A DNA stretch of 33,202 bases from a virus. The stretch's first letter is position 1. Each line of letters opens with the position of its first letter. Below are positions 2,460 to 32,926 of this stretch, piece after piece. The notes beneath the pieces are model-generated. The model ran no database searches and had not been told where the DNA came from. It saw only the letters and a program-made list of their open reading frames with translations. The DNA is taken from IMG/VR virus record IMGVR_UViG_3300019132_000058, positions 1-33,202 of that record. One strand, 5' to 3'. The translations under genes and the position numbers were made by a program.

Positions 2460-5159
2460 ATGGGAAATTTAGAAAATCAAATTAGTTTATATTCATTATC
2501 TACAGATTGCTTTCTTAATAGTAAAGAAGCTAAATTCAAAAAGGAAAAGGATAAATTTTCAGATCTGAAGAGGCTGAGAAGAGCTGAGGAAAAGGTTAAA
2601 GCTAATATTGAAAGATTAGAAATTGAACTTGCTGAAACGGTTGATCAGGAACATAAAGATAAAATTAACAGTATTATCACCAAGCAACAACGAAAATTAG
2701 ATTATCTTGATTGGCTAGAAGATTATTTTAAAGGTACCAAGCATACTAAGAAAAGTTATAAAGAGGGATTGAAGTCGTTAATTGAAAAAAATGCAGTAGT
2801 TAGAACATTAGATAATAGTCATCTGCATCCTAAAAAAATTATTACACTGTTTGAATCAACTCTTACTCGTAAAATGAATCTTGAAATTGGCGAGTTAACT
2901 GAGGATTTAATCATTGTTGAGGTTTATGATTATGGGGTGTTTAAGGATTTATTAGAACAAGGATTCAAGCACAATAACCAATTGTACATCTACCTAACGT
3001 CATCTAGTGGTCAGATCCGCAACAAAAAGGCTGTTTTTATCAATAAGGACAAGTGGGAAGAAGTAGAGAACACGTTAATGTGTGGTCTTACTATTGACGA
3101 TATAAATTCTAAAGGTGGAATGTCGGTTAATAAATTTCTTAGTTACAAAGCCCTTGCTTCTTCCGCCTCAGAGCCTTGGAGAGACTTCCCTATAGACAAG
3201 ACAATTGTTGTAGATGATGTAAAGGTAAAATTATATAGAACTGTTGATTTAGTAGATAGAGAGTCTTATGAGGTAAATAGAAAGGACAATCATCCAATCG
3301 AAATAGAGATAACGGATGGTGCTGGAATGATACTTCCTGAACTATGTGAAAAGGTAACTGGTTCAAGAAATAAAAATTTTCAGTTTAGAGCACCCTTTAT
3401 GAAAGGCCTTCTTTCTCCTGTTCAGTTCAATGGATTTAATAATGGTAAATCATTGTTTGTGAAGGATTGTTATAACCAGGTGCATGACATTATAAAAGAA
3501 GGCACACAAATAATACTCTTTAAATCACAATTTAAAATGAAGAAGTATTATGATACATGGGAACAGTATCAAACTAATTTCAAAAATTACAATTGTGAAG
3601 CTTCTTTTATGAACGTTGAAGAAGATGAAATATCGAATGCTAAAACTAATTATCAATATATTCAACCACTAATTGACCTAAGTGACGAAGAGTTAGAGGG
3701 ATTAGTGGAGAGTACTAATAAAGATATCGCTAAGCTTGGTTCTGATTTAGAAACCATGCTCAAAGTGTTAGGTGTAGATGAAGAAAGTGAGAATTATAAT
3801 TATTTTCAGCAAGCACTAAGACTGTATAATCCATTACTAAATGACCCACATTCTAAACAGGCTATCAAAAAACGTAAAGAAACATTAGTTAAAGAAGCTA
3901 AAGGTGGGAAGTTGAATATAGATGGAAAATACACCTATATCCTTCCAGATTGGTATGCTGTGATGGAAAGTATTTTCTTGGATAAGGAGCCTAAAGGCTT
4001 GCTGAAAGATGGTCAAGTATATTGTAATTTGTATTCTGAAGGTAAAGTAGATTGTTTGCGTAGCCCATCGTTGTCATTTGAGCATGTTGTTCGTCAGAAT
4101 ACTAAATCAGATGAAATGAAGGATTGGTTTATTACAAAGGGAGTACATGTAAGTTGTCAAGACATGATTTCTAAAATTCTTCAGGCAGATTGGGATGGCG
4201 ACAAAATTTTAATCACACCATCAAAAATCCTAATAAATGCAGCCGAAAGGAACATTGAAAAATTAGACGTTGTTCCACTTGAGTATGAAATGGGTGTTGC
4301 ACCTGAAAAACAAATTAATCCTAAAAGTATTTATGATAGCTTGGTTTTTGCATTTAAAGGAGATATCGGAACGATAAGTAATAATATAAGCAAAATATAT
4401 AATAGTAATAATTTTGACTACGAATCAATTAAAAAATTGACTTCTTATAATAATCATGTCATTGATATGGCTAAAACTTTAGATCTTCCTAAACCTCCAC
4501 AGGATGTAAAGAAAAAATGGAATGAGTATAAATCTGAAAAGTTACCTTACTTTTTCCAATATGCCAAAAATAAATCTGAAGATAAGGTTAAGGAGAAAGA
4601 TGACATGGTAATGAATCGGATAGAAGATATGATACAAAGTCCCAGAATAACTTTCAGGAGTGTTGCTGGGAAGTTTGACTATAAGAATTTAATGAAAAGA
4701 TCATACATACCAATTACAAAGTATATTGTTGATAAAGAAACGGATGAAGAGATTATTAAACGATATATAGAACTTGATCAGAATAAATCGAAATATATAA
4801 ATAAGAGTGAGGACGATGAAAAGAAGCGTTCAAATAAGAAGAAAGTGAAGCATGTCTATAGAATGATTCGCAAGCAATTACTTGAAGTACATAACAGTCC
4901 TAATAATGTTACAGATGTCTTAGTTAGATATTTATACAACAATGTAGATAGTTCATTTAAAACAACGTTATGGGAATCATTCGGTAAAGAGATCGTTGCA
5001 AATATTAAAAGAAACGTATATAACATAATTGAATGTGTGGATTGTAAAGAAGAAGTGGAGAAGCAGACACAAAGACAGTTAAGATGTTATGGGTGTCAGG
5101 AGAAGCGTAGAAAAACATTAGATAATGCACGTAAGACTAAAAAGAAAATTTCCGCATGA
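2460..5159 (+). CDS. Single-chain RNA polymerase-like protein (YonO / two-barrel RNAP superfamily)
   Basis: An 899-residue protein; ATG start with AAAGGGATGG upstream. The key signature is ADWDGDKILI with D577, D579 and D581, matching the DxDGD metal-binding loop of the beta'-type double-psi beta-barrel in multisubunit RNA polymerases, eukaryotic RdRps (QDE-1 type) and SPbeta YonO. About 45 residues upstream, CLRSPSLSFEH (532-542) corresponds to the conserved basic R-x-P-x-L strand that precedes the loop in those families. The N-terminal ~100 residues are a charged coiled coil, and residues 859-879 form a CxxC-x13-CxxC zinc ribbon. It probably makes RNA from phage DNA: late transcripts as proposed for YonO, or primers for the adjacent origin. 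Which of the two cannot be told from sequence. A terminator follows at 5179. Confidence 0.75.
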   Translation: MGNLENQISLYSLSTDCFLNSKEAKFKKEKDKFSDLKRLRRAEEKVKANIERLEIELAETVDQEHKDKINSIITKQQRKLDYLDWLEDYFKGTKHTKKSYKEGLKSLIEKNAVVRTLDNSHLHPKKIITLFESTLTRKMNLEIGELTEDLIIVEVYDYGVFKDLLEQGFKHNNQLYIYLTSSSGQIRNKKAVFINKDKWEEVENTLMCGLTIDDINSKGGMSVNKFLSYKALASSASEPWRDFPIDKTIVVDDVKVKLYRTVDLVDRESYEVNRKDNHPIEIEITDGAGMILPELCEKVTGSRNKNFQFRAPFMKGLLSPVQFNGFNNGKSLFVKDCYNQVHDIIKEGTQIILFKSQFKMKKYYDTWEQYQTNFKNYNCEASFMNVEEDEISNAKTNYQYIQPLIDLSDEELEGLVESTNKDIAKLGSDLETMLKVLGVDEESENYNYFQQALRLYNPLLNDPHSKQAIKKRKETLVKEAKGGKLNIDGKYTYILPDWYAVMESIFLDKEPKGLLKDGQVYCNLYSEGKVDCLRSPSLSFEHVVRQNTKSDEMKDWFITKGVHVSCQDMISKILQADWDGDKILITPSKILINAAERNIEKLDVVPLEYEMGVAPEKQINPKSIYDSLVFAFKGDIGTISNNISKIYNSNNFDYESIKKLTSYNNHVIDMAKTLDLPKPPQDVKKKWNEYKSEKLPYFFQYAKNKSEDKVKEKDDMVMNRIEDMIQSPRITFRSVAGKFDYKNLMKRSYIPITKYIVDKETDEEIIKRYIELDQNKSKYINKSEDDEKKRSNKKKVKHVYRMIRKQLLEVHNSPNNVTDVLVRYLYNNVDSSFKTTLWESFGKEIVANIKRNVYNIIECVDCKEEVEKQTQRQLRCYGCQEKRRKTLDNARKTKKKISA

Positions 5160-5626: not shown

Positions 5627-6184
5627 ATGAATGAAGAAGTAATTCTAACTCCGATTCCTAGTTACAAAGGGTTATCAAATTATTTAGCAGATACGATAAA
5701 TGGTCGCATTTGGTCTAAATCAGAGGAACGTTTTCTTGTGGCAAATCCAAACTCAAATGGATATTGTTATTGTGGTGTTTTACATGATGATGGGACTAGA
5801 AATTGTTATGGCTTACATAGGTTAATAATGGCCTCATATTCAGGGATTGCATTGGAACATTTCAAACGTGGTGAAATAGAGGTTGATCATTATCCAAATG
5901 AGGAAGAAAGATGGAATAATCGAATTGACAATTTACAAATGTCTTCTCGTGAGTCTCAATACCGTGAAAGCACTCGTGCAAAAATGGGTAAAGGTAAACG
6001 TCTAAAAGAGGAAGAAGTTATTGAAATCCTTGAGCAATTAGAAGAATGGAAAGCTGACGAGAATAATAAATTAAGTGATTTTATCCATCAAACTGCTGGA
6101 GCATATGGACAGGGATATCGTAATATATGGAATATTGTTTACGGTAAGAGTTGGAAACATCTGCGTAAGGATAATAAAGAATGA
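5627..6184 (+). CDS. HNH homing endonuclease (NUMOD4-like N-terminus)
   Basis: A 185-residue protein; ATG start with AAGGTGG upstream. Residues 1-40 resemble a NUMOD4 module (PSYKGLSNY...INGRIWS). Residues ~55-110 carry an HNH/beta-beta-alpha-metal core: GLHRLIM with its His, then VDHYPNEEERWNNRIDNLQ, where D-H and N-x-x-x-N-L are the conserved catalytic and structural residues. The C-terminal ~60 residues look like a DNA-binding tail. Such genes are usually free-standing selfish homing endonucleases nicking a cognate phage locus. It has its own hairpin leader, and the open frame continues after its stop (see 6239-6418). No intron or intein is visible. Confidence 0.8.
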   Translation: MNEEVILTPIPSYKGLSNYLADTINGRIWSKSEERFLVANPNSNGYCYCGVLHDDGTRNCYGLHRLIMASYSGIALEHFKRGEIEVDHYPNEEERWNNRIDNLQMSSRESQYRESTRAKMGKGKRLKEEEVIEILEQLEEWKADENNKLSDFIHQTAGAYGQGYRNIWNIVYGKSWKHLRKDNKE

Positions 6185-6238
6185 TCAATCAAATACAATA
6201 TTTTAAATAGTGGTATCATTGAATTTATACATACTGAA

Positions 6239-6418
6239 ATGTCTGTTGAAGGTATAGTTGAAGCTTTACTAAAAGAGGATTATATAGAGGAATTATTCGA
6301 AGGAGATATTGAAGCTGCGAAAAGTGAAATTTTCCTTGTTGCTTCGGATACACAGCTCGGATTTGAGTACATAAATAGTTATTTTAAGACGTTACATAAT
6401 AGAAGTGTTAATACATAA
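6239..6418 (+). CDS. Unknown 59-residue protein with uncertain start
   Basis: An acidic helical protein (residues ~4-35 rich in E, A, L, I), unrecognised. The ATG at 6239 has no good ribosome binding site. Its frame is the same as that of the upstream HNH gene and stays open all the way back to that gene's TGA at 6182-6184, with no better start codon. An out-of-frame ATG overlapping the HNH stop (ATGA, 6181) gives only nine codons before a stop. This pattern suggests a start lost by a small indel, stop readthrough, or a translationally coupled gene damaged by a frameshift. Confidence 0.4.
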   Translation: MSVEGIVEALLKEDYIEELFEGDIEAAKSEIFLVASDTQLGFEYINSYFKTLHNRSVNT

Positions 6419-6622: not shown

Positions 6623-6746
6623 GAATCTCCATAAATTCTAAATTTTATTTGAATCAGATAGGACATTTTTCACCATTGTAAGTCATTCTTTATGCCTAAT
6701 CTTGTCAAATATGGTAGAATGATAGAGAAGGTTGGGAGGGATTATA

Positions 6747-7604
6747 GTGAGTGATAAAACAAGTTTAGAAACTTTTCATAATCAAGCACAAGAATTAACA
6801 GGAGAAAATGTAGGCATCTTTGTTGATTATGATAACATGTATCATTGTTTAAGAGACTTTGGGGCTGACATTGAAAGCGAAGAAGCAGACGTAATTGAAT
6901 TTCTTTGGAATTGTTATACCAGAGATAAAATTAGGACATTCAAAGCATATGCAGATTTTGATCAAGTTCAAGTCTCAATGCGTAATCTTCAACTAAATAG
7001 AGTTCAAATAAAGCAGGTTTACGGTAATGGTAAAGAAGAAAAATACCGAAAAAATGCTTCAGACATTGAATTATCTATTGATGCATTGGAATCTACATAT
7101 CACGATAGTTCAATTGACACTTATGTTTTCGTAACGGCAGATAGTGACATGATTCCTATTATGAGTAGAATGATTTATAAAGGGAAAAAAGTTCATCTAT
7201 ATTATATAGGTACAAATGTTTCGCAGTATCAAGACATAACTAAGTATTCTCATTACAATCAAGATTTTTTAACTGTTTTTAACATTGATAAAGACAGAGC
7301 TAATGCAAATTACTGGGTGGAAAAAGTTTGTCAACATATTAGAGAATGGTACGATGATTCTAAAAATAAGAACAACATGTACGGTGGAACATGGCTTAGA
7401 GACGGTTTGATCAAAACCTTTAGTATGTCTAAATCACTTGCCTCCTCAGTCATTGAACACCTTGAAACAGAAAAGAATATCATTAAGTATAAAAACCCAA
7501 AAAACAATAGAGACGGTTACATTGTTGCTGATGATTTATTTGTATTTGAAACTAAATTTGGAGAAAATGGAATAAAATCGGGAAAAACTCCAGTAACCAA
7601 TTGA
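6747..7604 (+). CDS. NYN-domain (LabA/DUF88-type) ribonuclease-like protein
   Basis: A 285-residue protein; the preferred start is GTG 6747 with GGGAGGG seven bases upstream, rather than TTG 6732, which lies just before that site. The N-terminal domain (~20-185) is a PIN-like NYN fold: VGIFVDYDN (D27, D29, N30), SDIELSID (D106, D112) and FVTADSDM (D132, D134) supply the acidic metal-binding cluster. Residues ~200-275 look like a small winged-helix/OST-HTH-type RNA-binding module. NYN proteins of this layout are RNases or RNA-binding proteins; a role in phage mRNA processing, or in abortive or superinfection defence, is possible. It has its own upstream region full of inverted repeats and a terminator at 7719, so it is probably a single-gene unit. 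Confidence 0.75.
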   Translation: MSDKTSLETFHNQAQELTGENVGIFVDYDNMYHCLRDFGADIESEEADVIEFLWNCYTRDKIRTFKAYADFDQVQVSMRNLQLNRVQIKQVYGNGKEEKYRKNASDIELSIDALESTYHDSSIDTYVFVTADSDMIPIMSRMIYKGKKVHLYYIGTNVSQYQDITKYSHYNQDFLTVFNIDKDRANANYWVEKVCQHIREWYDDSKNKNNMYGGTWLRDGLIKTFSMSKSLASSVIEHLETEKNIIKYKNPKNNRDGYIVADDLFVFETKFGENGIKSGKTPVTN

Positions 7605-26907: not shown

Positions 26908-27900
26908 ATGATTAACGATACTGCTAGACTCATGAATGATTTAGAAGTTGTGGTTAGTACACTTGCTCCTGATACAGTACAAGACAAGCTTTCTATTCGA
27001 TTAGAAGAAGTATTGAGCAATTATGACATCCACAGAAAAACACTGAAGGATATCGAAAATGATTTAATGGATAAGATCGATATTTACCTATCATCGAGAA
27101 CAATTGAAGGATTATCACATAAAACACTTGACGGTTACAGAATCGAGTTGATTCAATTTGCAAAGTACATAAATAAGCCAGTAGTACAAATTACTACATC
27201 GGACATAAGAAAATATCTTGCCCATAATAGTCATTGGATGATCAGCACAATGGATAGAAAATTGTCGGTTTTAAAGACATTCTTTTGTTGGCTTGTTAGA
27301 GAGGAATTACTTTTACGTGATCCTTCAGCAAAAATTAAAGCACCTAAGAAACCAAAACGACTTATAAAGTCTTTGACAATCGAAGAATTAGAAATTGTTA
27401 GAGATTCTTGTGAGACATTAAGAGAAAGAGCGTTAATTGAAACAATGTATGCTACAGGTTGCCGTTTATCTGAAGTCCAAAACATGAAGAAATCTGACAT
27501 TAACATACAAGATATGTCTGTAAGAGTAATTGGAAAAGGCGATAAGGAAAGAATCTGTTATCTTTCAATAAAATGTCTACATCAACTAAGGAAATATTTA
27601 AGTAGTCGTAAAGACGAATGTGAATACCTCTTTGTTACTGAGCGTAGACCGATTAGAAAAATGTCTGATCGAAATATTGAAAGAATCATAGATGTAATTG
27701 CAGGAAGAGCTAAATTAAGTAAGAAGCTTACCCCACACGTATTTAGACATACATTTGCTCAACTAGCAATGGAGAACGGTGCAGAACTTTCAGATGTACA
27801 GCATTTAATGGGACATGAAGATCCAGGAACAACACTTATCTACAGTCATGTTTCTGAGGAACGAAAAAAATTAGCACATAAACGATATCACGTACAATAA
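26908..27900 (+). CDS. Tyrosine recombinase (Xer-like)
   Basis: 330 residues; ATG with AAGGAGGG. The full catalytic set is present: R186 (TGCRLSEV), K210 (IGKGDKER), H277 and R280 (HVFRHTF), H303 (MGHEDPGTT) and Y312 (LIYSHVS). A SAM-like core-binding domain lies at ~55-140, preceded by an extra ~55-residue helical N-terminus. It is closer in look to XerC/D-type enzymes than to large phage integrases. It may resolve multimers of a phage-plasmid or integrate the phage; no attP could be recognised. It interrupts the usual fibre-to-holin order and is controlled by the operators upstream. Confidence 0.92.
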   Translation: MINDTARLMNDLEVVVSTLAPDTVQDKLSIRLEEVLSNYDIHRKTLKDIENDLMDKIDIYLSSRTIEGLSHKTLDGYRIELIQFAKYINKPVVQITTSDIRKYLAHNSHWMISTMDRKLSVLKTFFCWLVREELLLRDPSAKIKAPKKPKRLIKSLTIEELEIVRDSCETLRERALIETMYATGCRLSEVQNMKKSDINIQDMSVRVIGKGDKERICYLSIKCLHQLRKYLSSRKDECEYLFVTERRPIRKMSDRNIERIIDVIAGRAKLSKKLTPHVFRHTFAQLAMENGAELSDVQHLMGHEDPGTTLIYSHVSEERKKLAHKRYHVQ

Positions 27901-27921
27901 GTCCCTTTGGGGCTTTTTATT
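27898..27921 (+). terminator. Terminator after the recombinase
   Basis: AGTCCC and GGGGCT (27900-27905 / 27909-27914) with a TTT loop, then TTTTATTTTG. It overlaps the recombinase stop and isolates the gene from the lysis cassette. Confidence 0.7.
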
Positions 27922-27943
27922 TTGCGTAGAAGGAGGTTGAGAA

Positions 27944-28240
27944 ATGAATGAACAAGTAGTAGACCGTTTAGATGAACACGAAAGACGAATAACAGATCTC
28001 GAAAAAAATCAATATGAGATGAGAAATGGCATGTTACGACTTGAAAATACTGTACTCCAACAAGGAAAAGAGCAAAAAGACCTTCTTAATAAGTTAATTG
28101 ACCATTTCTTTGATGACAGGAAGGATGCTCGAAATAGTAAGGTTAGACTGAGTGAAATTAAATGGACTACATTAGTTGGATTATTTGGTGGTGGAAGTGC
28201 CATTGTTCTAGTAATTCAATGGTTATTAAGTCTAATTTGA
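27944..28240 (+). CDS. XhlA-type holin partner (haemolysin XhlA family)
   Basis: 98 residues; GAAGGAGG site. Residues ~5-65 form a coiled coil (VVDRLDEHERRITDLEKNQ...), then a basic stretch and a single C-terminal transmembrane helix (~74-97, WTTLVGLFGGGSAIVLVIQW). This is the XhlA layout; in Bacillus PBSX-type systems it works with a holin to let the endolysin out. It is first of the lysis trio, 16 bp before the holin. Confidence 0.85.
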   Translation: MNEQVVDRLDEHERRITDLEKNQYEMRNGMLRLENTVLQQGKEQKDLLNKLIDHFFDDRKDARNSKVRLSEIKWTTLVGLFGGGSAIVLVIQWLLSLI

Positions 28241-28256
28241 AAGGGATGAATACATA

Positions 28257-28439
28257 ATGAGATTTAAAAATTATGGATTGTGGGTTGCATTTGCGGCTTT
28301 GGTTGGCCTATTTGTAAATGACTTAGGATTATTAGCACCTGAACAGTATGATCAATATGTCAATGCTGTTTTGGCTGTATTGATTGCAGCAGGTATAATC
28401 AATAATCCTTCAAATGGGAAAGGGTACGGTGATAAGTAA
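28257..28439 (+). CDS. Holin (phi LC3-like)
   Basis: 60 residues; AAAGGGATG site. It has two hydrophobic segments (~7-25 and ~35-48) and a short basic C-terminus (NPSNGKGYGDK). NYGLWVAFAALVGLFVNDLGL and AGIINNPS fit small class II holins. Its stop overlaps the amidase start (TAATG), coupling holin and endolysin. Confidence 0.82.
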   Translation: MRFKNYGLWVAFAALVGLFVNDLGLLAPEQYDQYVNAVLAVLIAAGIINNPSNGKGYGDK

Positions 28440-29092
28440 TGAAAATTGAAGATGTTGGTCTAAAATTTAAATATGCTCTTACACCATTAAAACGAATAGA
28501 TAAGATTATAATTCATCATCCAGCACATCCAACATGGGATATCCATGACATACATAAATCACATCAAGCTAAAGGATGGAATGGGATTGGGTATAACTAC
28601 TTTGTAACTAAAGATGGTAAGGTTCAAAAAGGTAGAGGTAGAGCTGAAGGTGCTCATTGTAAAAATGGGTACAATAGCAAGTCTTTAGGTGTTAGTTTCC
28701 AAGGTAACTTTGAGATACAAGTACCAACAGAGGAACAATATCGTGCTGGTGCTAAATTAATTGCTCAGTTGTTGAAACAGGAAGGGTTGAGTGTTAATGA
28801 TGTAGATGGCCATAGTGCGTTTGATAGCACCCTGTGTCCTGGTAAAAACTTTGCTCTTGGTAAGTTAAAAAAATATATTTCTGAAGAATTAAATCCAACT
28901 AAAAAGGAAGTGACTAGCGTGTCAAATCAAAAATATGTTCATTCTCATAATGACAAAGTTATGATTGATTTATTATCTAAGCATGGTTATATGGCAAAAT
29001 CATTTGAAATCCCAAGTAAAGAATTCGCTCAAATGCTTTCTATCCCATATTTAATTGTTAAGGATTTAGAGGATAAGGGTGTATTGAAGTAA
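28439..29092 (+). CDS. Endolysin, N-acetylmuramoyl-L-alanine amidase (Amidase_2)
   Basis: 217 residues. The catalytic domain (~15-150) is of the T7-lysozyme/PGRP fold: zinc ligands H26 (IIIHHPAH), H125 (DGHSAFD) and C133 (TLCPGKNF), with W47-N48-G49-I50-G51-Y52 (the WNGIGY block). The C-terminal ~60 residues (from ~160) are a small wall-binding domain that I do not recognise. No signal peptide, so export relies on the holin. Confidence 0.93.
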   Translation: MKIEDVGLKFKYALTPLKRIDKIIIHHPAHPTWDIHDIHKSHQAKGWNGIGYNYFVTKDGKVQKGRGRAEGAHCKNGYNSKSLGVSFQGNFEIQVPTEEQYRAGAKLIAQLLKQEGLSVNDVDGHSAFDSTLCPGKNFALGKLKKYISEELNPTKKEVTSVSNQKYVHSHNDKVMIDLLSKHGYMAKSFEIPSKEFAQMLSIPYLIVKDLEDKGVLK

Positions 29093-29124
29093 TTTCTCTT
29101 TAATGGTATACTGAACGTATGTTC
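29084..29124 (+). promoter_or_regulatory. SOS (LexA/DinR) promoter after the amidase gene
   Basis: TTGAAG (29084-29089), 17-bp spacer, extended -10 TGGTATACT (-10 29107-29112), and directly after it GAACGTATGTTC (29113-29124), a perfect GAAC-N4-GTTC Bacillus SOS box covering the start site. It points rightward, yet no rightward gene follows for 1.5 kb and a terminator begins 26 bp after the box. Confidence 0.75.
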
Positions 29125-29180
29125 GTAATTTGATATAAAAAGCAAGAAGCCCTCACCTTGGAAAAGTGAGGGTTATTTTT
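29119..29180 (+). ncRNA. Possible short SOS-induced RNA
   Basis: If the SOS promoter is active, transcription from ~29119 would end at the hairpin with T-run at 29150-29180, giving a ~60-nt RNA with a 3' terminator stem. It has no open frame. Readthrough would be antisense to the leftward gene 29173-29442. This is a prediction from the promoter and terminator only. Confidence 0.3.
29150..29180. terminator. Bidirectional terminator
   Basis: CCCTCAC (29150-29156) and GTGAGGG (29166-29172) pair perfectly, followed by TTATTTTTT; on the other strand CTTTTT follows. It ends both the amidase/SOS transcript and the leftward operon. Confidence 0.85.
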
Positions 29181-29442
29181 TATTCAATACTTCCCAAAGA
29201 GCTGATTCAATTTTAACTTTTAATTTAGTCTGTTTTTCTTCATCTAATTCTTCGAATAATTTCTTCATTAATGATCTTTGGTGTAAAATAATTTCCACTA
29301 GTTCTTTTTTATTATACTTATTTAAACCAGCTTCAGTAGTTAACCATTCATTATCATAACCGATTAATTCTAAGAGTAGGGTATATAATTTTTGATACTC
29401 TTTTTGTTGTTTCTGAAGTATCTTTCCAGTAATTTCATTCAT
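29173..29442 (-). CDS. Unknown helical protein, last gene of the leftward operon
   Basis: 89 residues, AAGGATA site. It is almost entirely helical and highly charged: KILQKQQKEYQKLYTLLLEL, a short non-helical GYDNEWLTTEAG, then two further helices ending in KK. Three-helix bundles like this are often small regulators or antitoxins, but nothing is recognised. Its ATG overlaps the end of the 43-residue gene upstream. Confidence 0.65.
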   Translation of the reverse strand: MNEITGKILQKQQKEYQKLYTLLLELIGYDNEWLTTEAGLNKYNKKELVEIILHQRSLMKKLFEELDEEKQTKLKVKIESALWEVLNKK

Positions 29443-29566
29443 AATTATTATCCTTAGATTTGAATTCGTCCCTTAACACTTCTTTCTTATACAATTCAAC
29501 GAGATATTGATACGCTTTTTGAATATTTTCGTCCTTATGCTTTCCCTCAATTATTGTTACTTTCAT
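29435..29566 (-). CDS. Unknown 43-residue protein
   Basis: It starts at the ATG ending at 29566 with AAGAGG upstream. It has a short beta start (MKVTIIEGKH) and a K/E-rich helix. It overlaps the next leftward gene by 8 bp, a sign of coupling, and follows the DUF4177-like gene by 13 bp. The gene is too short for motif recognition; overlap and site are the evidence. Confidence 0.55.
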   Translation of the reverse strand: MKVTIIEGKHKDENIQKAYQYLVELYKKEVLRDEFKSKDNNYE

Positions 29567-29579
29567 CTATAAACCTCTT

Positions 29580-29765
29580 CTATTCAATTTCCCTTTTAAA
29601 CAAATAGCTTATCTCTGTAGAAGTTCCTGCTGATACAGGAGCATATACACTTACACATTCCCATCCTTCTTGGCCTAGTTTATTTAATTCCTCGTCAGGA
29701 CTTTTCTTTTGTTTTAGTAATCCCTTTTTTTCAACTGAAAATGTTTTATATTCAAATTTCTTCAT
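29580..29765 (-). CDS. DUF4177-like small protein
   Basis: 61 residues; GAGGAGGAA site. The pattern KKFEYKTFSV...DEELNKLGQEGWECVSVYAP...ISYLFKRE is that of DUF4177 proteins, small alpha/beta proteins of unknown function that are widespread in Bacillus and phages. It is a member of the leftward operon, with a 97-bp gap upstream that may hold an internal promoter. Confidence 0.8.
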   Translation of the reverse strand: MKKFEYKTFSVEKKGLLKQKKSPDEELNKLGQEGWECVSVYAPVSAGTSTEISYLFKREIE

Positions 29766-29862
29766 TTTAGTTCCTCCTCAATGTGATCTTAATGATTATA
29801 CGATTAGTACATGGTGAAAGTTCATTAACTTGATAACTTATCCCGATAACTTAATACTTCAT

Positions 29863-30114
29863 TTAAAAGTGTTCGAATCTTTTCTTCTGAGATTTTTTAA
29901 AATTAATCCAACCTCTAGGATCAATATCGTATTTGTTTGTGTATTCCTTTATATCTTTTCCCCATATATAACCATTACCAGTATGACTAAATTCACGAAT
30001 AATTTGTTTCCCTTTGTAGTAGTAGCTAAGACGACCATCCTCAAAAGAGCGTTCCTCTATGGGGTATGAATTAAAAATTTCCTTTATGTGTTCGAATGAA
30101 AGCAATTTAATCAT
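29863..30114 (-). CDS. Unknown protein coupled to an XRE regulator
   Basis: 83 residues from the ATG ending at 30114, overlapping the XRE stop by 8 bp; TTG at 30105 with AAAGGA at better spacing is an alternative. A helical start is followed by a beta-rich middle (GRLSYYYKGKQIIREF, GNGYIWGK) and a basic tail. No family recognised. Its coupling to the regulator suggests a partner or modulator of it. Confidence 0.6.
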   Translation of the reverse strand: MIKLLSFEHIKEIFNSYPIEERSFEDGRLSYYYKGKQIIREFSHTGNGYIWGKDIKEYTNKYDIDPRGWINFKKSQKKRFEHF

Positions 30115-30325
30115 TCCTTTCTTCTTTGTATTCGTATAGATCATCGACTTTACATCCGAAAAGCCTCGCTAACTTATATAGATCCTCAACTTTAGGTTGA
30201 GTTTTAGTTGTTGCCCAGTTGCTTAGGGTGTTCGATGAAACTCCCATATACTTCTGAATATATTCCCTTTTATATGGAGATTCCTTCATAAGTTTTCCTA
30301 TCCTGCTTTTGATCATTATTATCAC
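30107..30325 (-). CDS. XRE-family transcription regulator, leftward operon head
   Basis: 72 residues (ATG 30325; ATG 30316 possible), AGGTGATA site. HTH: YKREYIQKYMGVSSNTLSNWATTKTQPKVEDLYKLARLFGCKVDDLYEY is the classic Cro/CI type with a strong C-terminal 'D-L-Y' end, as in phage and ICE immunity regulators. It probably binds repeats in the region upstream (CACAAATTTCTTTTAAA and CACAAATTCCTTTAAA). It is the first gene of the leftward cluster. Confidence 0.88.
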   Translation of the reverse strand: MIIMIKSRIGKLMKESPYKREYIQKYMGVSSNTLSNWATTKTQPKVEDLYKLARLFGCKVDDLYEYKEERND

Positions 30326-30670
30326 CTGTTAAAGAATATTCCACAAATTTCTTTTAAACCCTTTCACAAATTCCTTTAAATAAAAAATCCAAAGTATCTT
30401 GTGATAGTTAGTTATAAGACAAACACTTGGCTTAATATCATTTACTACGTAACAAAATTCGTAGAGTTTTCGTAAAAGAATTCGTGAAACTAGCTATTAA
30501 ACTGTAAATCAATTTGAGGTTCCTTTTCGTTTAATAATTCGGGTGTAATTGCTTGTAGCGATATGTGAAACGAACAAATAAAACCTATCATATCAAACTA
30601 TAATCCATATTCTCACTTTCGTTTTTAGAGAGACTATCCTATTGGATATAAAGGGAAAGGGGTGGTGCTA
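30326..30670. promoter_or_regulatory. Intergenic control region between XRE and FtsK-like genes
   Basis: This 345-bp gene-free region holds: direct repeats 30342-30358 and 30365-30380 (one base different in length); the motif GTTAGTTATAAGACAAA (30407-30423), similar to 2422-2437; and four boxes TACGTA/TTCGTA/TTCGTA/TTCGTG at 30446, 30458, 30469 and 30481 (steps 12, 11, 12). Further TTCGT copies lie at 30526 and 30618, and a TATAAT at 30599. It seems to be a divergent control region and perhaps a partition site. Confidence 0.5.
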
Positions 30671-31987
30671 ATGTTTATTGAAATTGCATCAAGTGCAGCT
30701 ATGGGAACTTTCCTACTTTATTTAAAATTTAAAAATGAAAATGTAACTAATGATGCAGACAAAATACAAAAAATAGCTGCTAATTGTGGTCTAAGTGTTA
30801 AGGAGGGAGGACAGGTAAAAACAATTCAATTATTAAGAAGATCAAAAAGAAAATGGGGAGTTGAGTATGCTTATCGTATTCCATTGGGATTGTCCTTTAA
30901 GGATTTTGAAAAAGAAAAGGAGAGGCTACAAGATGGATTAAACAATAAGAAAAGTATTTTTGACCTTTCTATTCAGGATTTTAAGCAACTTAAATTAAAT
31001 AATTCTATTGTTCAACAAATCAAGGAACTATTAGAAAAAAAGAAAAAACTTAGAAAGGAAGTTGAATTATCTTATGATGGACTATTAAAAATTCGAGTTT
31101 ATCATGAGCCTTTACCAAGTAAAGTTGAGTACGAATTTCCAGAAATAAAAGGTTGGAAAGTACCTATTGGTCAAACTAGAGAATTAAATAATTTTCTATA
31201 TCACAACTTCGAAGAAATTCCTCACATGGTAGTAGGTGGAGGTACAAGAAACGGCAAATCAAATTTTCTTAACTTGCTTATCTCTTCATTGATTAGCAAT
31301 CAATGTGACAATGTTTTGTTTACCCTCATTGATTTAAAAGGTGGAATTGAGTTTTGTGATTACGAAGGTGTAAAACAAGTAAAGAAAATAGCCTATGAAC
31401 CAGAACAGGCTTTAGAAGCTCTAGAAAGTGCTTATAATGACATGCGTGATATGCAATCTAAATTAAGGAGAATGAGAAAGAAAAAAGTTCAGGATGCCAA
31501 TATTCCTCAAAGACATTTTGTAATTATTGATGAAGTCGGTGAACTGAATCCTCAAGAAGCAGTTACTAAAGAAGAGCGATATTTAAAAGAACAATGTCAA
31601 ACATACATGAGCCAAATTGCCAGGTTAGGAGCTGGCTTAGGATTCAGACAGGTACTTGCCACTCAATATCCTACGGGTGATGTCATACCAAGACAATGTA
31701 AACAGAATAGTGATGCTAAGTTATGTTTTAGGGTTAGGAATGCTACGGCATCTAGAGTTGTCTTAGATGAAGAAGGAGCAGAGAAACTACCCTTAATCAA
31801 AGGAAGAGCTATTTATCAAACTGTTGAAAAGAAGATCGTTCAAGTTCCATTAATAAAGGATGAGAAAATTAGAGAAATAATTGAACCTCATATTAATATC
31901 AGACCTAGAAAGGATGTTGATCATGAAAAGGGTAATCGAGAAGGAACAAAGGCAAATGAATATTCTTTCAAAATTGAGCCTGCTTGA
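30671..31987 (+). CDS. FtsK/SpoIIIE-type DNA translocase-like ATPase
   Basis: 438 residues from ATG 30671 (AAAGGGG region upstream; GTG 30662 adds three). The N-terminus has a single hydrophobic helix (FIEIASSAAMGTFLLYLKF), then a helical region, and the RecA-like domain: Walker A GGGTRNGKS (189-197), VLFTLIDLKGG, Walker B FVIIDE (283-288), and GFRQVLATQYPTGDVIP, all diagnostic of FtsK_SpoIIIE. No gamma domain. In Bacillus phages and mobile elements such genes move or gate DNA, for example as coupling proteins. It overlaps the next gene by 65 bp. Confidence 0.9.
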   Translation: MFIEIASSAAMGTFLLYLKFKNENVTNDADKIQKIAANCGLSVKEGGQVKTIQLLRRSKRKWGVEYAYRIPLGLSFKDFEKEKERLQDGLNNKKSIFDLSIQDFKQLKLNNSIVQQIKELLEKKKKLRKEVELSYDGLLKIRVYHEPLPSKVEYEFPEIKGWKVPIGQTRELNNFLYHNFEEIPHMVVGGGTRNGKSNFLNLLISSLISNQCDNVLFTLIDLKGGIEFCDYEGVKQVKKIAYEPEQALEALESAYNDMRDMQSKLRRMRKKKVQDANIPQRHFVIIDEVGELNPQEAVTKEERYLKEQCQTYMSQIARLGAGLGFRQVLATQYPTGDVIPRQCKQNSDAKLCFRVRNATASRVVLDEEGAEKLPLIKGRAIYQTVEKKIVQVPLIKDEKIREIIEPHINIRPRKDVDHEKGNREGTKANEYSFKIEPA

Positions 31988-32525
31988 TTATTTGACTAGA
32001 TCACAAATCCAATTTATTAATGACCTTGGTGGAGATAGAAACGCACAGAGAATTTTAAAGGATATGTCGGACTATATTAGTCATTTTAGAGATGGAGAGA
32101 ACATTTACTACTTAAATGCAAAAGGACGTTCTATTGTAGGCGGTAAGCCACGTAGTAAGACTTTACAAGCTCAGCATTACATTATGAGAAACTACATTTA
32201 CATTGCATTTGGTCAACCTGAAACATGGCAGTCAGAACAGAGAATGGAATTGGAAATGAAGAATAATAAGAAAATTACAGTTGTAGCAGATGCATTATTT
32301 TACGATGATGAAATGACACTTTATGTTGTTGAAGCAGATCATACACAAAAGATGATTAAGAATGAAAAAAAGGTTGAAAAGTATAGACAACTAATCGATC
32401 TTGGTGCGATTAGTAAGAAAACAAAATTTATATGGATTACAACTACTGAATACAGACGAGAAAAACTGAAGAGTTTATGTGAGGGTTTGAATACAACTAT
32501 TTTTACTGCTGCTGAATTTAGTTAA
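31923..32525 (+). CDS. Replic_Relax-like protein
   Basis: 200 residues from ATG 31923 (AAAGGATG upstream, inside the FtsK-like gene). An N-terminal winged-helix-like part (LSLLDYLTRSQIQFINDLGGDRNAQRILKDM) is followed by an alpha/beta domain with VVADALFYDD...LYVVEADHTQKMIKNEKKVEKYRQL, the PD-(D/E)xK-like pattern of replication-relaxation family proteins. This family is found in plasmids, ICEs and phages beside FtsK-like ATPases, and may nick or bind DNA. The call rests on pattern and neighbour. Confidence 0.7.
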   Translation: MKRVIEKEQRQMNILSKLSLLDYLTRSQIQFINDLGGDRNAQRILKDMSDYISHFRDGENIYYLNAKGRSIVGGKPRSKTLQAQHYIMRNYIYIAFGQPETWQSEQRMELEMKNNKKITVVADALFYDDEMTLYVVEADHTQKMIKNEKKVEKYRQLIDLGAISKKTKFIWITTTEYRREKLKSLCEGLNTTIFTAAEFS

Positions 32526-32545
32526 TTACGAGAGGATTGATTAAA

Positions 32546-32926
32546 ATGGCAAAAGTGCAGTCAATTAAATTCAATGAGTTTATGTCTGGTGAATACAAGA
32601 TGAAGAAAAAAGAAAAAGTTGCTATTGCTTCAATGGCGAGTATGTCATTATATCCGATGTTTATGGTTAAAAGTGCTTCAGCAGGAGCAATTACTGGTGT
32701 AATAACTGAGAAAACTGTAAATGCTTTTGATCCTATTGTTGATTTGCTTCAGGGGTTATCTTATCCAATTTCTTTAATAGTCATGATGTGCGGAGGAATA
32801 GTTTGGATGTTAGGTTCTAAGGAGAAGGGTTTGGGATTAATTACGAATGCAGGAATGGGTTATATAATAGTACAAATGGTTCCTTTGGGTATGAAATTAC
32901 TTGTAGAAGTAGCTAAAACGTTTTAA
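32546..32926 (+). CDS. Small exported membrane protein, VirB2/pilin-like layout
   Basis: 126 residues from ATG 32546 (AGAGGAT upstream; TTG 32537 possible). Residues ~18-47 look like a signal peptide: KMKKKEKVAIASMASMSLYP then MVKSASA-GA, an AxA cleavage site. The mature part has two hydrophobic segments (~70-90 and ~98-118) with a charged turn (GSKEKG). This is the layout of VirB2/TrbC pilins and of some phage membrane proteins. It is third in the FtsK-Replic_Relax cluster; family assignment is uncertain. Confidence 0.65.
   Translation: MAKVQSIKFNEFMSGEYKMKKKEKVAIASMASMSLYPMFMVKSASAGAITGVITEKTVNAFDPIVDLLQGLSYPISLIVMMCGGIVWMLGSKEKGLGLITNAGMGYIIVQMVPLGMKLLVEVAKTF

Follow-up and report, generated by a model that had tools for sequence, protein, structure and literature searches.

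A predicted LexA-controlled promoter without a gene beside the endolysin gene of a temperate phage, possibly a relic of an SOS cassette

The window, by which we mean the whole 33,202-base stretch of viral DNA that was analysed, carries a putative sigma-70-like promoter overlapped by a LexA-type (SOS) box at the 3' end of its endolysin gene, and an intrinsic terminator separates this site from a run of convergent leftward genes (Table 1). The final two sense codons of the endolysin gene double as the -35 hexamer (TTG AAG TAA, 29084-29092). The -35 sequence TTGAAG (29084-29089) is followed by a spacer of 17 bp and by the extended (TGn) -10 sequence TATACT (29107-29112), so the well-formed promoter of the original prediction can be seen in the sequence. 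The box, TGAACGTATGTTCG, agrees with the consensus CGAACNNNNGTTCG at 13 of 14 positions, the mismatch being the first base; this consensus is that of LexA (DinR) of Bacillales, and the host group of the phage is itself only probably Bacillales. The box had been described as perfect, which holds for its 12-base GAAC....GTTC core, where no mismatch is found, and fails by one base for the 14-mer. The sequence GAACNNNNGTTC occurs exactly once in the whole 33 kb record, namely in this box. As looked for in a LexA-controlled promoter of Bacillales, the box (29112-29125) overlaps a SigA-type promoter, whose -10 ends at 29112. Moreover, the box starts 20 nt past the endolysin stop and thus lies beside the lysis genes, the position looked for in an SOS cassette. 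Going by these elements, LexA would be expected to bind here and the promoter to be active. A leftward promoter was also sought at the LexA box, and none was found.

Table 1. Coordinates of the features around the putative SOS promoter, as positions of the window.
Feature	Position	Strand	Basis and remarks
N-acetylmuramoyl-L-alanine amidase endolysin	28439..29092	+	Pfam Amidase_2, E=3.6e-20; final codons serve as -35 hexamer
Putative sigma-70-like promoter	29084..29112	+	TTGAAG, 17 bp, TG-n-TATACT; consensus scan 9/12 with TGn
Putative LexA-type SOS box, TGAACGTATGTTCG	29112..29125	.	overlaps the -10 and extends past it; motif match and geometry comparison
Predicted RNA, ~60 nt	29119..29180	+	start placed 7 nt past the -10; no ribosome-binding site, no ORF
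Intrinsic terminator	29150..29172	.	between endolysin and convergent leftward ORF; equivalent in 8/8 endolysin relatives
89-aa ORF, PHROG 33865, function unassigned	29173..29442	-	convergent; relatives in SPbeta-like phages near aimR
Rest of leftward run: 43-aa ORF, DUF4177, 84-93-aa ORF, Cro/CI-type HTH	29435..30325	-	
Cro/CI-type HTH gene	30107-30316	-	convergent to the promoter

A transcript from this promoter would, as predicted earlier, run into a terminator after about 60 nt, the hairpin at 29150-29172 being followed by the T-run TTATTTTTTATT. The claim that no rightward gene lies behind the promoter was also borne out, as all genes from 29173 to 30325 are leftward and the next rightward one starts only at 30662. 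The predicted RNA folds with -14.4 kcal/mol (z -2.06), a value due to the terminator hairpin, and what remains of it outside the hairpin is short and A/U-rich. From 30662 to 32926, FtsK/SpoIIIE, replication-relaxation and TrbC-like genes stand in a row on the plus strand, as they also do in the loci L002 and L134; the FtsK-like protein shares 55-58% identity with its counterparts in Bacillus phages, Andromeda-type ones among them.

The terminator was compared with those of eight loci carrying related endolysins (L002, L134 and L175-L180). An intrinsic terminator follows the endolysin stop in all of them, with the stem starting, as measured by script, 12 nt past the stop in L002, 6 nt in L134, 8 nt in L176, 33 nt in L177, 6 nt in L179 and 8 nt in L180. 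For L175 and L178 the script gave no stem, and hairpins were read from the sequence, at about 90 nt past the stop in L175 and within a few nt of it in L178. The window's own stem starts 56 nt past the stop. As the relatives all have such a terminator, the hairpin at 29150-29172 is most simply taken as that of the endolysin, i.e. of the late operon, and the putative promoter as lying in an enlarged gap ahead of it. No LexA box was found between endolysin stop and terminator in any of the eight relatives. Upstream of the lysis genes, a tyrosine recombinase gene (26908-27900, plus strand) lies between the tail genes and the holin and endolysin genes, and its relatives in L002 and L177 are likewise located just ahead of the endolysin.

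The geometry of the site was compared with that of SOS promoters with a gene behind them. In Paenibacillus phage Fern and Aeribacillus phage AP45, the box of a gene for a 74-aa protein starts one base past the -10, directly after it as in the window, and its 3' end lies at +15 relative to the -10, compared to +13 in the window. In both phages a ribosome-binding site and an ATG stand directly behind the box, whereas in the window this place is taken by the terminator, with neither a ribosome-binding site nor an ORF. In AP45, amidase and holin genes are found no more than about 2 kb from the 74-aa gene; the stretch of Fern that was read contains no lysis genes. For SPbeta, the box of yolD is placed at +14 from the -10 (PMC8270828), and binding of LexA in vitro to the divergent yolC/yolD SOS promoters is credited to Au et al. 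2005 in the same review (PMC8270828). The core of the yolC/yolD LexA box is identical to that of the window. The SPbeta arrangement differs in having two boxes between divergent genes, followed by yolD and a DNA polymerase gene, while the window has a single box and no such genes; the stretch of SPbeta that was read does not contain an endolysin gene. Unlike in the window, the boxes of L177, L179 and L180 lie in or next to the spacer.

In several phages that are related or comparable, genes for YolD, a LexA-type protein, a Y-family polymerase and the 74-aa protein recur as cassette members close to the lysis genes. At the stringency used here, a box next to SOS genes was detected in 4 of the 29 surveyed loci (L177, L179, L180 and L233), a set that was not dereplicated and consists of loci that carry either the neighbouring FtsK/replication-relaxation module or a related endolysin. 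In L177 the box and a 74-aa gene are found just past the endolysin terminator, in L179 SOS boxes accompany a LexA DNA-binding gene, and in L180 a YolD gene (Pfam E=1.9e-22) stands under a box. L233, which comes from a bacterial genome of the same family as Peribacillus acanthi, contains two boxes, around which genes for YolD, the 74-aa protein and a LexA-type protein are grouped. The nearest relative of the window, L002, has no box but retains, at 6029-6394, a homologue of the gene located behind yolD in L180. Among the comparable phages, Psychrobacillus phage PVJ1 has a run of 74-aa, LexA-type, Y-family polymerase and YolD genes behind its lysozyme and a ligase gene, in Bacillus phage phi18-2 YolD is flanked on one side by the lysis genes and on the other by an ATPase/replication-relaxation pair, and Fern has YolD and 74-aa genes ahead of its integrase gene. 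The cassettes of PVJ1, phi18-2, L177 and L180 share with the window their neighbourhood beside lysis genes. They carry cassette genes, however, whereas in the window no YolD, LexA-type, polymerase or 74-aa gene was found, either under the box or elsewhere. A low-stringency search for remnants of these genes around the site gave none, the best local match having E=0.016. L177 (5900-7300) and L178 (5900-7100) encode near-identical endolysins, of which only that of L177 is followed by a box and a 74-aa gene, and they thus form a natural pair for SOS gene gain or loss.

The site itself was searched for in other genomes. The exact 19-mer had no match in the viral contigs searched and none in a sampled collection of 397 genomes of the order Bacillales, where one match with a single mismatch was obtained. 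A 108-base query of the site gave only matches of E=4 against phages, and a nucleotide search with 27900-30700 gave none against phages and plasmids. Scans with single protein sequences (endolysin, FtsK, integrase and 89-aa ORF) returned few or no close relatives, and alignment queries returned more. Neither this promoter nor the short transcript predicted from it was therefore found to be conserved in any relative, among the eight endolysin loci, the viral contigs and the 397 genomes. The original prediction had suggested that relatives be checked for an SOS gene at this place. Such a gene was encountered in L177, as the 74-aa gene past the endolysin terminator, and no relative with a gene directly behind this same promoter was found.

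One explanation is that a promoter-like sequence and a LexA-box-like sequence arose by chance in AT-rich noncoding DNA, with no history as an SOS promoter. The window-wide expectations for this were estimated by simulation, and all of them are post hoc, as the combination was picked after being seen. The box core alone would be expected 0.29-0.45 times per window, and promoter-like sites of equal score are no denser than background (12 found vs 13.9 expected in 3 kb). Chance is further favoured by the site's not being found in relatives and by its -35 being coding sequence of the endolysin. In addition, 85 of 119 sites of the -10/box motif TATACTGAACNNNNGTTC among the matches listed from viral contigs, which number at least 119 in total, lie inside long ORFs and are probably chance occurrences, so that this motif is by itself weak evidence. 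Against this explanation, the core with an overlapping promoter is expected only 0.018 times per window, before restriction to the 9.9% of the window that is noncoding, and the combination thus stands above background. With TGn added, it appeared in none of 600 simulated windows; a looser definition gave 0.073 for core and overlapping promoter and 0.013 with TGn. Since the geometry also resembles that of phage SOS promoters that do stand before genes, a chance origin appears rather unlikely to us.

The transcript could also have a role of its own, and a small RNA induced by DNA damage had been proposed. Promoter, operator and terminator are indeed correctly ordered and spaced, and SymE/SymR of another bacterium provides a precedent, in which a LexA-repressed gene has a cis-encoded regulatory RNA (PMC1891008). 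However, no relative was found to have the site, Rfam has no family for the predicted RNA (one sub-threshold match fell elsewhere in the stretch), and the RNA is little beyond the endolysin terminator hairpin that accounts for its above-chance folding. That prophage induction yields a functional small RNA of about 60 nt acting in trans is on this evidence improbable. Beyond the order of the elements nothing was found in favour of such a function, which is not supported, and it is decidedly doubtful that the phage encodes a LexA-repressed, damage-induced RNA within the 3' end of its late operon to control host or phage genes in trans. If functional, such a LexA-controlled small RNA would be unusual for a Gram-positive phage, but the evidence does not lead to it; in the literature searched on SOS boxes of P. 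larvae phages and on Gram-positive SOS small RNAs, nothing was found on this arrangement. An effect in cis might also be imagined, in which SOS-induced transcription or a LexA roadblock would disturb the leftward genes, including the Cro/CI-type regulator, that face the promoter convergently. The terminator stands between them, though, and in L002 and L134 the same convergent layout and terminator occur without a box. An antisense brake on the leftward operon, another part of the original prediction, fared poorly, as the terminated RNA overlaps the ORF ending at 29173 by just a few terminal bases and a brake would therefore require read-through of the terminator. We regard an effect in cis as very improbable. 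In the SPbeta-like phages Goe12 and BUCT082, relatives of the leftward 89-aa ORF are located one or two genes ahead of the arbitrium receptor gene aimR; a match to this ORF from the genome search turned out to be an unrelated locus.

The best reading, to which we give about an even chance, is that the site is a gene-less relic of an SOS-cassette promoter. On this view, a temperate phage, probably one of Bacillales, would have retained a LexA-type promoter after losing the gene that stood behind it, and this promoter most likely derives from a cassette of 74-aa, LexA-type, Y-family polymerase and YolD genes such as those kept near lysis genes elsewhere. After DNA damage, cleavage of the host LexA could allow this promoter to fire, and RNA polymerase, about 60 nt on, would run into the terminator of the late operon, leaving an untranslated stub. 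Both the descent from an SOS cassette and the absence of function are deductions from the comparisons above. A remnant of a lost SOS gene was one of three options in the original prediction, and it is the best of them, as SOS genes recur near lysis genes; the part of it that found no match is a gene remnant in the window or a gene behind the same promoter. For the same reasons, a simple deletion is something that we infer rather than observe. A single deletion could not directly interconvert L177 and the window, as the SOS promoter lies after the terminator in L177 and before it in the window, and no intermediate between the two orders was found among the relatives compared. The absence of this promoter from all relatives also speaks against a relic, as does the low number of surveyed loci (4/29) with a box beside SOS genes. 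Moreover, a core kept perfect without selection would require that the loss was recent. A relic would add one more case to the gain and loss of LexA-controlled repair cassettes beside the lysis genes in phages of Bacillales and their kin, and would indicate that a promoter can outlive its gene.

Two further genes of the window lie far from this site. An 899-aa protein with a DWDGD motif (2460-5159, plus strand) belongs to PHROG 8308, of unknown function (E=9.1e-223), and matched neither a Pfam family nor a PDB sequence; by eye, we suspect a single-subunit RNA polymerase of the YonO type. The gene at 6732-7604 on the same strand encodes a NYN-domain protein (Pfam E=4.3e-18).
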